Part shown: piece after piece, positions 8,674 through 17,625 of the stretch
How positions within the stretch are numbered: position 1 is the first letter of the stretch
Layout: every line of letters begins with the position of its first letter
DNA from: Caulobacteraceae bacterium
Lineage (GTDB): Bacteria > Pseudomonadota > Alphaproteobacteria > Caulobacterales > Caulobacteraceae
Assembly (NCBI GenBank): GCA_025352085.1
Contig: JANXUA010000108.1
Coordinates: forward strand, 1-41,840
Reading direction: 5' to 3'
DNA: 41,840 bases
Position numbers and translations under genes: made by a program
The notes under the pieces: model-generated
What the model saw: the letters and a program-made list of their open reading frames with translations, nothing else
Databases searched by the model: none
Told to the model about the DNA's origin: nothing

Positions 8674-11600
8674 TCAGAACATGGAGCGTCCGGCGACCCG
8701 AACATTGTATTGCCGCTCGCCGGAACGGAACTCCGCGTCGCCTTCCAGGGCGAGATAGGAGTATGGCGAGCCGGTCTTGAGAGAGACGCCAAAGGTCGCC
8801 CACCCGCCTTTGTTCTGGTCCGCCGCCATGGTGAACGGGTTTCCGCCGGTGAAAAAGGCGGTCGTGTCGCCCACTGCGCCGGACAGGATCTCGCGATATC
8901 CGCCGTAGATCTCCGCCCGCAGCCAGCTGGTGGTTCCCCATTGATGGCCGAGGACCAGGATCGCCTGGCTGCTCAATCGGGAACTGCTGCGCGACGCGAT
9001 GTTCAGATCGAAGCCCGCCCCGCCGCCGCTTTCGTTGTGCGCCTGCTCATTGAGGCGCAGATAGTCAGCCGACACCTCGGGACGCGCATAGAAACGCCCG
9101 AACTTTTGTTCATAGGCCAGGACCGCGTGGCCATCGAAGAAATAGCCGCCCCAGCTTGCGCTGGCCGAATCGCTGGCGTTGGGGGCCAGGAATTTGCGGT
9201 CGCTGGAGAAGAACGCGTAGCCGCCGCCGCCGCGCACCGCGAAGCGCAGTCCGCCGATCGCGCGGCGGTAGTAGAGGCTGCCCTCGACAATCGAAGCTAT
9301 GACATGGGTGCCCACCTGTGCGCCCGAGTCCGCCTCTTCGGCGTCCATATAGCTGAGCGTGCCGCCGACCGCGCCGCCGCGCTGGCCCATGTGCTCATAG
9401 CCCGCGACCACGCCAAACAGTTTTGAATTGGAGCCGAGGGTTTGGATTCCCGTCCGATTAACGCGCTCGTTGACTTCCTGCAGCCAAAGGCTTGAGCCGG
9501 CCACACGCGTACCGGCGTCCGGCGTTGTCGAGGTCATGTTCGCCACCGACTGGGTCGCCGACTCCAGGGCTTCGAAGAGACCTTGTCCCTGGCTGGGCAG
9601 GAGTTGGTCGTACACCCCCTTGAATCCGGCCTGGGTCGTCTGCGCCAACAAGGCCGCTTCGATGCCGTGCGTGTCGTTGGGCAAGGCCTTGAGAACGGCG
9701 TTGAGCGCGCTCGCCTCGGCGGCATTGATGCCCAGTTGCGCGGTGGTTTTCTGCGTGACGGTCAGAACGATGCAATTGGTCGCGCAATTTGCCGTGCCCC
9801 CTTCCACGCCCGGCGTCGCTGTGTACAGGTACGGCGCATTATTGAGGACGCCGGCGGCGAAGGTCCCGGCTGTCAGGGTGCCCGCGCCAGAGGTCTGCAG
9901 GATGATGTAGTCGCTCGTCTGGGCCGACTGGATGCTTTGCAGGGTAAGCCCGATGGTCGCGCCCGTCGCGAAGGTCGATGCGCCGGTGGTGAAGAACTTG
10001 GTGTTGGTTCCGGCCGCCGGATCGGCCGCCACCAGCAGCACGCCGCTCGCGCCCACATTGACGCTTTTGGCCTGGATCACGCTGGAATTGGTGTCGCTCA
10101 GCGTCCCGTTGGTGACATTCAAGGTCAGGGTATTGGCCCCGCCGTCCCTGATCGCACCCGAAACCGCGACGCCGGCGCCATTGACCGTCAGCGTGTTGAC
10201 ACCCGAACCCAGATTGATGATCGGCGCGGTGATCACGCCGGCGGTTACATTTACGGTCGCGCCGCCCGATCCGAACAGGATCGATCCATTGATGAACGGC
10301 TTTAGGGCGCCGATCTCGCGCCACACAGACGGTGTCGTCGCCGGATCGACGGCGACCCCCGCCGCGGCGGTCGCCTGAAACAAGACGCCGTTTTCGCTGA
10401 CGATCTGGCCGATCGTATAGCTCAGCGTCGAATTGTAGGGGGTTGAGGCTGCCTGATTGGCGGATAGCTGCTGGGTGAGAGTCTGCGCGGTCGTGGCGTG
10501 CGACATATCGATGGCGGTCACCGTTCCGGGCATTGGCGCGGTGTCGAGGGTTTGCGTTAACTGGGCGCTGATCGTGCCGGTGTTGATGACGCTGGTCAGG
10601 CTGCCGGATTTGTCGATGATCGCGCCGGTGTTTCCGCCAACGCCCCCGGTGCCGGTGATGTTGGCGACAATCCCCGCATTGTTGACGATGCTTGAGACGT
10701 TCGCGCCCGCGTCAATAAGGATTGCATTGACGTTGAGCGGCGTGACGCTGCTTGTAGCGGTATTGATCTGAGACGCGGAGGCGCTGATGGAGCCATCGTT
10801 GCGGATCAGGGGAACTGTCGCGCCGGCCCCGATATGAATCCCCGTCGCGTCAGCCTGGTATGACTGGGCGTTGATGGCGCCGCCGTTGAAGATTCCGCCG
10901 CCTAGCGAAACCGTTCCGCCGCTCTGTCCGCCGATCTGGATGGCCGTCGCCGCCGCGGGCGCGGGCAGATTGGGAGAGGTGAACTGGTCAAAAACGCCGG
11001 AGCTGAAAATGGCGCCCTGGTTGACCAGACCGTAGGTTCCGGTCGCAATTCCCGCCGCATTGGTGGCGACATTGCCGAAGGTCACCGGCGATCCGGCGGC
11101 GCCGATCAGCAGGGCGGGCGCGGAGCCATACGACACAATCTCACCCGCATGCTGGTTAAGATCGGGAACGCCGTTACCGTCGAGATCAAGGTTGGTCGTC
11201 GACAAGGTCAGGGGTGGCGCGCTGATGATGACGCCACCGCCCACGTTGGCGCCGATTGTCACCGCCGCGCCGCCCTGCTGCATCTCCTGAGCGGTGTAGA
11301 GGGCCGAGACGGCCGGGTTTGAGGCTCGCGTCGTGGTGCGATAGCCGGTCGCGGTCTCCACGCCGGATATGTCGATCTTACCGCCGACCGCACCGCCGAT
11401 CACCACCGCGCGAGCGCCGACGCCCGTCGCGTTTATGCTGGTGAGCCGCATATTGCCGCCGACGCCGCCGGTTGGGGTGATGTTCAGGCCGACGGTGTTG
11501 TCGCCCACAAGACTGATCGAACCGGACGCCACCGACGCGGCCACGGTCGACGTCGCGGGGGTCACCGTCAGCATCTGGAAGTCGCCGGTGATTGGCGCGG

Positions 11601-12114
11601 CGATCTGAACGCCGAACGAATTATTGCCGTGCACGGTGATCGCGCCGGTCTCGGTGATGCCACCCGTAAACACGCCAGGGCCAATGACCGAGACGCCGAA
11701 CCGATTGGTGCCTTTCGCGAAGGCGCCGGTCAGCAGGCCGTCATTGTTGGTGTCGGCCGTGGCGACGTAGGTCTCGGTGATATTGATAGTGCCGGTGTTG
11801 GTGAACTGACCGGTGTTTCCACCCTCAATCAGCACGCCGATGGCGTTGTCGATGTCCGTAAAACCGATCGAACCCTCGTTCGAGACGGTATTGCTGCTGT
11901 TGATCGTCACCGCCGCGCCGCCGGCGGCATTGGTGATCCCGATCGAACCGCTTGAGGTTATGTCGATATTGGCCGGGGCCCCAGACGATGCCGTCGCGGT
12001 CGCAACCGGGGTAGTCGTGGCCGTGCTTATCGAGACCTGGGCGGCGGCGTGGCCGGCAAACAGCGCAAGAAAGGGTGCAGCCGAAACGGCGACCGCGCGG
12101 AACGTACGTTTCAT
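8674..12114 (-). CDS. Type V autotransporter with beta-helix-like passenger
   Basis: This 1146-residue protein starts with a signal peptide (cleavage expected after HAAA, about residue 25). It continues with a long Asn/Gly/Ala/Thr-rich passenger (about 26-860) full of short N-x-G-x-I/V turns typical of secreted beta-helices. It ends with an autotransporter barrel (about 880-1146) that starts SLWLQEVNERVN and finishes in the terminal phenylalanine of VRVAGRSMF, as the barrel-assembly machinery requires. A segment at about 553-602 departs from the helix pattern and looks like a carbohydrate-binding module of the CBM5/12 type. A C-x3-C pair lies near the end of the passenger (about 780). The product should be exposed on or released from the cell surface; its binding target is unknown. 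Confidence 0.9.
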   Translation of the reverse strand: MKRTFRAVAVSAAPFLALFAGHAAAQVSISTATTTPVATATASSGAPANIDITSSGSIGITNAAGGAAVTINSSNTVSNEGSIGFTDIDNAIGVLIEGGNTGQFTNTGTINITETYVATADTNNDGLLTGAFAKGTNRFGVSVIGPGVFTGGITETGAITVHGNNSFGVQIAAPITGDFQMLTVTPATSTVAASVASGSISLVGDNTVGLNITPTGGVGGNMRLTSINATGVGARAVVIGGAVGGKIDISGVETATGYRTTTRASNPAVSALYTAQEMQQGGAAVTIGANVGGGVIISAPPLTLSTTNLDLDGNGVPDLNQHAGEIVSYGSAPALLIGAAGSPVTFGNVATNAAGIATGTYGLVNQGAIFSSGVFDQFTSPNLPAPAAATAIQIGGQSGGTVSLGGGIFNGGAINAQSYQADATGIHIGAGATVPLIRNDGSISASASQINTATSSVTPLNVNAILIDAGANVSSIVNNAGIVANITGTGGVGGNTGAIIDKSGSLTSVINTGTISAQLTQTLDTAPMPGTVTAIDMSHATTAQTLTQQLSANQAASTPYNSTLSYTIGQIVSENGVLFQATAAAGVAVDPATTPSVWREIGALKPFINGSILFGSGGATVNVTAGVITAPIINLGSGVNTLTVNGAGVAVSGAIRDGGANTLTLNVTNGTLSDTNSSVIQAKSVNVGASGVLLVAADPAAGTNTKFFTTGASTFATGATIGLTLQSIQSAQTSDYIILQTSGAGTLTAGTFAAGVLNNAPYLYTATPGVEGGTANCATNCIVLTVTQKTTAQLGINAAEASALNAVLKALPNDTHGIEAALLAQTTQAGFKGVYDQLLPSQGQGLFEALESATQSVANMTSTTPDAGTRVAGSSLWLQEVNERVNRTGIQTLGSNSKLFGVVAGYEHMGQRGGAVGGTLSYMDAEEADSGAQVGTHVIASIVEGSLYYRRAIGGLRFAVRGGGGYAFFSSDRKFLAPNASDSASASWGGYFFDGHAVLAYEQKFGRFYARPEVSADYLRLNEQAHNESGGGAGFDLNIASRSSSRLSSQAILVLGHQWGTTSWLRAEIYGGYREILSGAVGDTTAFFTGGNPFTMAADQNKGGWATFGVSLKTGSPYSYLALEGDAEFRSGERQYNVRVAGRSMF

Positions 12115-16247: not shown

Positions 16248-17303
16248 TCAGTCGTCATGGGGTCTTAGCTCCAGTCGAAGACTCGCGGCGAGCGACTCCG
16301 GCACGAACGCCGCCTGGACGCGCGCGAGCTCCGCGGCTAGGCCGGGGGTGTATTCCATTTCGGACGCGGCCAGGGATTGGTCGAGCGGGCGGCGAACCAA
16401 GTGTTCGATGGACCCATCAGCGAGCGTCACGCCGATGCGCGGGCGCACGGCCGCCGCGATCCGCGGACCGGCGATGGCGGCGATCCGGTCGGCGAGATGG
16501 GCCGCCTTCATCAACGCCGAAATCGCCGTGAGGTCGGCCGTGGCGGGCGGCGTGCTTGCATCGACCAGATCGGCGATTCGTTGCCAGACGACCGGCCCCG
16601 CCGCGGGCGTCCGGTGACGGTCGTTGGCGACGGTCATGGCGACGCCGTCGAGCCTGTACGCGCGTCGACCGGTAACGCCGTTAAGGATGTAGGAAATCAG
16701 ACCGTCAATCCGCTGGTCGTCTTCCCCGACGACGAAGAGTTGGTGCCTTAGGATGAACACCTCGCCGGTGTGGGAGAACGATGGATCGAATACGCGAAAG
16801 AACAGACGTTCGCCCAGACGCCAGACGATGATTAAATCTGGGACCAGTTCGCCGGAGTTGCGGAACGCCACCCGAAATCCCGCATAGACTCCCGGGTAGG
16901 CTTGGCCCTCGCGCCCGACCTCGATCTCGCTTTGAACACGGGAGCGTTGGAGACCGGTCGGTGGGTGGGGCGAGGGGCCCTCGGCGTCGATCGTGGGCGC
17001 GCGCAGCGGCAATGCGGGCGCGTCGGGCTTGGCGAGCGCAACCCGACCGTCTCCGCCGAGAGCGGCCGCAAACGCGTCCAGCGGCAGATCCCAGCTGAGC
17101 TGGGTGAACCCGGGCGCCCTGGCGCGGACGATGGCAGTGAGCGTCGCGACGTTGTGCCCGCGCGGCGCGGTAATCCCTCTGATCCAGCGGCTGACCAGGG
17201 ATTTGTCCGCCCGAGCCTCGGACGCCAGAGCGCCGCGACTTATATTGAGAAGTTTCATCGCCAGGCTCAGCCGGACGCCGAATTCGGGAGAGGGGTCCGG
17301 CAT
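16248..17303 (-). CDS. HTH (XRE-like) regulator with unrecognised sensor-like domain
   Basis: The protein has 351 residues from the ATG at 17303. About residues 8-60 form a helix-turn-helix of XRE type, with ISRGALASEARADKSLVSRW as the recognition unit. After a proline-rich linker comes a C-terminal region of about 250 residues that I do not recognise; it includes GVYAGFRVAF, DLIIVWRLGERLFFRVFDP and GEVFILRHQLFVV, which read as beta strands of a possible ligand-binding domain. A TTG at 17372 would add 23 residues but would lie inside a cluster of TTGC repeats that look like an operator. It is divergent from a 42-codon ORF and may regulate it and itself; that is inference. Confidence 0.75.
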   Translation of the reverse strand: MPDPSPEFGVRLSLAMKLLNISRGALASEARADKSLVSRWIRGITAPRGHNVATLTAIVRARAPGFTQLSWDLPLDAFAAALGGDGRVALAKPDAPALPLRAPTIDAEGPSPHPPTGLQRSRVQSEIEVGREGQAYPGVYAGFRVAFRNSGELVPDLIIVWRLGERLFFRVFDPSFSHTGEVFILRHQLFVVGEDDQRIDGLISYILNGVTGRRAYRLDGVAMTVANDRHRTPAAGPVVWQRIADLVDASTPPATADLTAISALMKAAHLADRIAAIAGPRIAAAVRPRIGVTLADGSIEHLVRRPLDQSLAASEMEYTPGLAAELARVQAAFVPESLAASLRLELRPHDD

Positions 17304-17348
17304 GGGATCGGGCACGGGCCTTCGATTGCGAATATCCAGGTCAACTAA

Positions 17349-17383
17349 ATGCAATCTTGCAACGATTTGCAACCCTTTGCGCG
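17349..17383. promoter_or_regulatory. Phased TTGCAAC direct repeats in a divergent promoter region
   Basis: TTGCAAC occurs at 17357-17363 and 17367-17373, with a partial copy, TTGCGCG, at 17377, and TGCAAT at 17350. The three later copies are exactly 10 bp apart, one helical turn. Inverted GCAA elements follow at about 17389-17397. The cluster lies between the HTH regulator and the small ORF and has the form of an operator for cooperative binding. Confidence 0.5.
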
Positions 17384-17496
17384 TCGCGGCAACGCAAAGC
17401 CCGCCAATACATCTCCACGGCTACCCGACGCGATGGCACAAGTCCGCCAACGACGGCCCTGCCGCCGCAAACCAATTTGCCACCTGGAGATATCCG

Positions 17497-17625
17497 ATGA
17501 CCAAGATCCTCGCCAGCGCCGCCGAAAGCCTCAACGGCTTTTGTAGATTCGTCCTGATCGTTTTGGGTGTGAGCGAAGGACACCGCGTTCAGCGCGCCAT
17601 GTTCGCTCTCTACTACGCCGGCTAA
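17497..17625 (+). CDS. Small ORF of 42 codons, hypothetical
   Basis: The ATG is preceded by GGAG at eight-base spacing, and the frame encodes a 42-residue peptide starting MTKILASAAESLNG, with a hydrophobic stretch CRFVLIVLGV and ending FALYYAG. It resembles no family I know. The hydrophobic centre followed by a basic segment could fit a small membrane-associated protein. It is divergent from the HTH regulator and converges with lpxK, 27 bases away. Support comes from the ribosome-binding site and position; length alone gives little coding evidence. Confidence 0.5.
   Translation: MTKILASAAESLNGFCRFVLIVLGVSEGHRVQRAMFALYYAG

Follow-up and report, generated by a model that had tools for sequence, protein, structure and literature searches.

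A predicted transcriptional regulator of a Caulobacteraceae bacterium and a divergent 42-codon ORF are separated by a short region with regularly spaced TTGC repeats, which raises the question of what protein reads these repeats and which gene they control. The first-pass annotation had reported three TTGC copies at exact 10-bp steps. These are indeed present in the window (the whole stretch of DNA analyzed, 41,840 nucleotides) at positions 17357, 17367 and 17377 (TTGCAACGAT TTGCAACCCT TTGC), and they exceed chance expectation. No second match to the triple was found in the window even when one mismatch was allowed (mean of 0.26 in shuffled sequences), and the exact pattern TTGCN6TTGCN6TTGC has a single occurrence in the 3.02-Mb genome, and the backward control pattern has none. 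Further elements near the triple extend the putative array to the limits given in Table 1. A search for sigma-70-like promoters and terminators between the regulator and the 42-codon ORF returned none.

Table 1. Features of the regulator locus, numbered from the first position of the window
Feature	Coordinates	Strand	Basis
Regulator P0001, 351 aa	16248..17303	-	ORF; start fits the family alignment
N-terminal HTH, residues 5-81, predicted lambda-repressor/XRE fold	17061..17291	-	AlphaFold2 model, C.BclI match, HTH_3 profile
Helix and eight-stranded up-and-down beta-barrel, residues 119-246, putative sensor	16566..16949	-	Model, barrel matches
C-terminal helical segment, residues 255-333	16305..16541	-	AlphaFold2 model
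Putative helically phased operator array	17350..17397	.	TGCA at 17350, three TTGC copies, opposite-direction GCAA at 17389 and 17394; sequence, genome uniqueness, family-wide enrichment and 10.6-bp period
GGAG, putative ribosome-binding site of the 42-codon ORF	17486..17489	+	Sequence
Divergent 42-codon ORF P0002, putative	17497..17625	+	Usual place of the family's divergent secreted-protein gene

For the regulator, we adopted the ATG at 17303 as the start codon, with a GTG at 17315 as an alternative; a longer frame from the TTG at 17372 was disfavored, because this start falls within the repeats. In the AlphaFold2 model of the full-length regulator (mean pLDDT of 89), the HTH domain is followed by a disordered linker (residues about 91-114), one helix, a run of eight strands and finally a helical tail. 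The HTH domain matched C.BclI in the structure comparison with a Z value of 11.1, and a sequence search for relatives with solved structures gave none. The HTH_3 profile matched 28 of 29 family members at E ≤ 0.1 (best, 1.3e-6), the score of the window's own regulator being below the curated cut-off, and for this protein Pfam and NCBIfam returned only weak HTH matches. By profile and predicted fold, the regulator is placed in the XRE/HTH_3 superfamily, with an HTH of the lambda-repressor type.

The C-terminal part had been described as a domain of unfamiliar kind, and indeed it was recognized by neither Pfam nor NCBIfam. When residues 116-351 were modelled alone (pLDDT of 94.7, pTM of 0.92), the best fold matches were designed beta-barrels (Z of 9.4), together with the Cap15 receptor (Z of 8.1 over 97 residues, 9% identity) and streptavidins (Z of about 7). 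All of the barrel matches lie near 10% identity, and their Z values are middling and indicate no function. The best Foldseek E value was 0.075, and the PDB profiles gave no sequence match to avidin or streptavidin, with which the predicted topology is shared. In these structure-library searches, the whole protein drew HTH-only matches and the C-terminal part common-barrel matches, and the absence of a match there is no proof of a new fold. The up-and-down barrel is a shape frequently used for small-ligand binding; from the shape in our model, neither a relationship nor a ligand follows.

Matches to the regulator were found in 25 of the 198 genomes searched, its own genome counted. A contig scan gave 174 stretches encoding relatives, from which 79 distinct loci were kept, and the pooled loci hold at least 98 distinct family members, which we take to belong to the Caulobacterales (Caulobacteraceae), Maricaulales, Sphingomonadales and Parvularculaceae. 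The start codons of the homologues were picked automatically, and the non-redundant sets were built from shared protein 3-mers and not from a tree. The closest relative is that of Glacieibacterium frigidum (62%, alignment A2). In this species, the module is present twice in tandem at L074:3350-7551, a divergent GxxLNG-repeat protein accompanying each copy, and the two regulators are not close to one another. Phenylobacterium sp. Root700 likewise contributes two members to the loci collected. An uncultured Caulobacteraceae MAG of the same genus as our bacterium (G008) has nine matching stretches, among them L055, L056, L057, L058, L059 and L060, several of which lie side by side on short contigs. 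A search of open-access papers for phased XRE operators or divergent motif proteins found nothing, and an earlier description elsewhere is possible. The family is an undescribed one that combines an HTH with an uncharacterized sensor-like domain.

The proposal that the repeats form an operator is borne out by their recurrence upstream of distant homologues. TTGCA was counted on both strands of the 200-bp upstream regions of 86 non-redundant members. It occurs at 193 sites, as compared with 44.9 in dinucleotide shuffles and 11.8 predicted from the remainder of these loci, and the enrichment over the latter is about 16-fold. The sites lie mostly 20-80 bp ahead of the start codon, and two or more are present in 49 of the 86 regions, but in only 1.3% of control windows. 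Same-strand distances peak at 10-13, 20-23, 30-34, 41-44 and 52 bp, and the spacings of the TGCA cores gave a best period of 10.6 bp (mean cosine of 0.56), which corresponds to the helical repeat of B-DNA, whereas 1000 random placements over the same spans gave cosines of 0.18 at most. The period was again 10.6 bp for 38 diverged members (cosine of 0.52 versus a random maximum of 0.27), whose upstream regions have almost no 14-mers in common, so recent shared promoter ancestry is not its source. The periodicity was clear in the sets of 38, 60 and 66 members; the strictest set (n = 13) is too small for a clear test. We conclude that the repeats are the predicted helically phased operator of the regulator family, and this putative operator is probably autoregulatory. 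On the other hand, 24 of the 86 members are without TTGCA in the 200 bp before the start, and the motif or its place therefore differs in part of the family. The first-pass annotation had named homologues lacking both the repeats and a small ORF as a refuting case, and this case holds for some homologues, as the 24 members indicate, but not for the whole family.

At L098, L031, L093, L115 and L128, TGGAATCAT or a similar word is located some 20 bp after the last TTGCA. Such words are common to many Phenylobacterium-type promoters and are perhaps a -10 element or a start site.

The regulator's own genome encodes a second family member (L002:1279-2229, G000:C106) between adk and rpsM. This paralogue sits in a ribosomal-protein gene cluster and has no divergent gene. 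Upstream of it are four TGCGA units with spacings of 10, 9 and 9 bp, an array that is also unique in the genome. Since the two members thus differ in their arrays (TTGC versus TGCGA), each of which is unique, the arrays are private to their regulators. A comparison of ten sequences gives a suggestive indication only that the HTH loop type may track the operator type, NAP-like loops going with TGCGA.

Divergent genes were defined across the family by a start 100-300 bp upstream on the other strand, a ribosome-binding-like motif, a positively charged start and a hydrophobic run, with the signal-peptide test being a simple home-made rule. A divergent signal-peptide gene was detected at 29 of 85 loci, versus 2.9% of random positions, and arrays were associated with such genes with an odds ratio of 4.8 (p = 0.003, relatedness ignored). 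In the family, the median distance of the array center is 60 bp to the regulator and 130 bp to the start of the divergent gene; the window has 63 bp and 131 bp, respectively, so the divergent layout described for this locus does recur at the same distance among its relatives. About half of the array loci (25/48) are without a divergent signal-peptide gene, and therefore the array belongs primarily to the regulator.

The divergent products themselves are diverse. Larger secreted or surface proteins are frequent among them, and tiny hydrophobic peptides occur only at some loci. They include GxxLNG/pentapeptide-repeat proteins (L074, L084, L108, L142 and L055; L108 matches PF00805 with an E value of 4.6e-7), PEP-CTERM proteins (L060, L079 and L113 by HMM, L058 by eye), a GloVer protein (L080), very large autotransporter-like proteins (L123, and by a looser scan L103 and L110) and hydrophobic peptides of 37-68 aa (L125, L005, L091, L128, L055, L094 and L093). 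Motif-rich proteins of Maricaulales are also among the products. Motif-rich divergent secreted proteins are encoded at L143:2255-3817, L027:88-1308, L132:2599-3801 and L124:2444-3760, and further ones at L016:326-1300, L008:1040-1351 and L083:3553-3855, with GLLLPAVQ, G[VIL]EPDEID, GDVNGDG and EGVDGES as reiterated motifs. The motif-rich proteins tested gave no confident Pfam or NCBIfam family, and LLLPAVQ and EPDEID appear in none of the open-access papers searched. Elsewhere in the window, a 1146-aa ORF (8674-12114, minus strand) begins with a signal-like sequence, continues as a repetitive body rich in alanine and threonine, and is autotransporter-like.

As to the gene that faces the regulator in the window, the small ORF with a ribosome-binding site and a hydrophobic core is present as described, though unremarkable by itself. 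Its GGAG lies 7 nt ahead of the ATG at 17497, and its product includes a stretch of some nine hydrophobic residues (FVLIVLGVS). Comparable ORF starts (ATG, at least 42 codons, and GGAG, AGGA or GAGG before the start) are found in 32 of 400 200-bp stretches of the window (about 8%). The 42-residue peptide has no detectable homologue in the 198 genomes (best E value outside the window, 0.026); the profile libraries gave no convincing homologue (PHROG, E value of 0.054), and the home-made rule found no clear signal peptide. For these reasons, the ORF is regarded as a putative gene. Regarding the GxxLNG neighbor proteins, the search for a relative elsewhere in the own genome reached just an E value of 0.087, and inspection of the other reading frames by eye revealed no NG repeats that would mark a frame-shifted remnant of a GxxLNG gene.

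It is a serious contender, at only slightly less than even chances, that the array is the autoregulatory site of the regulator alone and that the 42-codon ORF is an untranslated chance ORF. The lack of homologues and the chance rate argue against a real gene, and the array loci without a divergent signal-peptide gene, as well as the paralogue at adk/rpsM, fit this reading. However, the orientation, the GGAG and the two distances match the family pattern, and the third-position GC of 0.76 is like that of the regulator (0.79), all of which argue for a real gene. Judging from these sequence features, we put the chance that the ORF is translated at about one half, and the ORF may be a recent or a decaying addition to the divergent products, a set that changes fast.

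A different assignment of the array, to another binding protein or to a bent-DNA or general promoter element, with the regulator acting elsewhere, appears unlikely. The enrichment distinguishes the family's upstream regions from other parts of the same loci, and the two members in the own genome have different private arrays. Furthermore, the triple-TTGCA pattern is rare, with seven matches in 16 genomes, three of which are the family's own promoters (G192, G130 and G185). At the triple-TTGCA arrays of L153, L154 and L155, no adjoining family member was recognized in the ORF lists.

Most improbable is a phage- or toxin-antitoxin-like module in which a Cro/CI-like repressor restrains a small toxic membrane peptide. 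The XRE domain with its divergent tiny hydrophobic ORF and the weak HTH-only resemblances to DicA and RmrA would suit it, but no phage gene was noticed in the window's ORF list, the larger ORFs are housekeeping-like, the relatives' divergent products are often secreted or surface proteins, and no homologue of the peptide was detected in the 198 genomes. Of the repressor and small-membrane-peptide module envisaged in the first-pass annotation, the array and the divergent layout recur in the family, but the identity of the peptide is not supported.

We consider it likely that the locus is a local one-component regulatory module, which comprises the XRE regulator, a phased array, autoregulation, probable control of the divergent gene and sensing by the barrel. 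The family, the array, its periodicity and uniqueness in the genome, and the geometry come from the sequence, and both folds from the model; from these we infer the binding, the autoregulation and its sign, the ligand sensing, and the expression and control of the 42-codon ORF. The XRE domain would read TGCA-centered half-sites (TTGC here) that are spaced by whole helical turns and so share one face of the DNA. With these half-sites just upstream of its start codon, the regulator would control its own gene; the most likely mode is repression, with regulator molecules bound cooperatively next to one another. The probable role of the C-terminal barrel is to sense a small ligand, which would alter the binding or oligomerization of the regulator. 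The regulator probably also controls the divergent gene, which in the family often encodes a secreted or surface protein and here would be the 42-codon ORF. More tentatively, and with the odds somewhat against it, the family may represent an undescribed XRE class with a ligand-gated avidin-like barrel, cooperative one-face assembly, private TGCA or TGCGA arrays for each paralogue, and for each its own fast-changing secreted or surface protein, tiny peptides included.

The half-sites at 10.6-bp steps would constitute a regulatory code that is shared by several orders and goes with a single undescribed family, and since this code is readable from the sequence, the binding sites are predictable and testable. 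Through the family, secreted- and surface-protein genes of Caulobacterales and relatives are also linked to an uncharacterized sensor-like domain, and such regulators would give access to a group of surface-display switches not studied so far.

Among the known systems, the XRE/HTH_3 factors (the lambda and P22 repressors, C.BclI and SinR) have the same DNA-binding domain by profile and fold. Dimers of these factors usually use palindromic sites, whereas our regulator has a helically phased putative operator and adds the C-terminal barrel without a Pfam or NCBIfam match. RtrA, RtrB, CdxA and CdxB are likewise XRE regulators, in Caulobacter, with a paralogue radiation; these Rtr factors have no recognizable C-terminal domain, and their motif pairs a strong half-site with a weak one (PMC10688885). 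The 351-aa length, the well-modelled second domain, the phased arrays and the differing motif set our regulator apart from them. In the mode of binding, the regulator, for which we predict cooperative binding on repeats, resembles BldC of Streptomyces, which is reported to form cooperative multimers on DNA direct repeats (PMC5859096). BldC is MerR-like, with 68 residues and no effector domain, and is not a relative of the regulator. Finally, the avidin/streptavidin-like barrels and the cyclic-dinucleotide receptor Cap15 are alike in topology to the predicted C-terminal domain (Z of about 7 to 8), a likeness known here from the model and at about 10% identity. The Cap15-like receptors have membrane helices, whereas the regulator has an HTH in the place of the membrane part.
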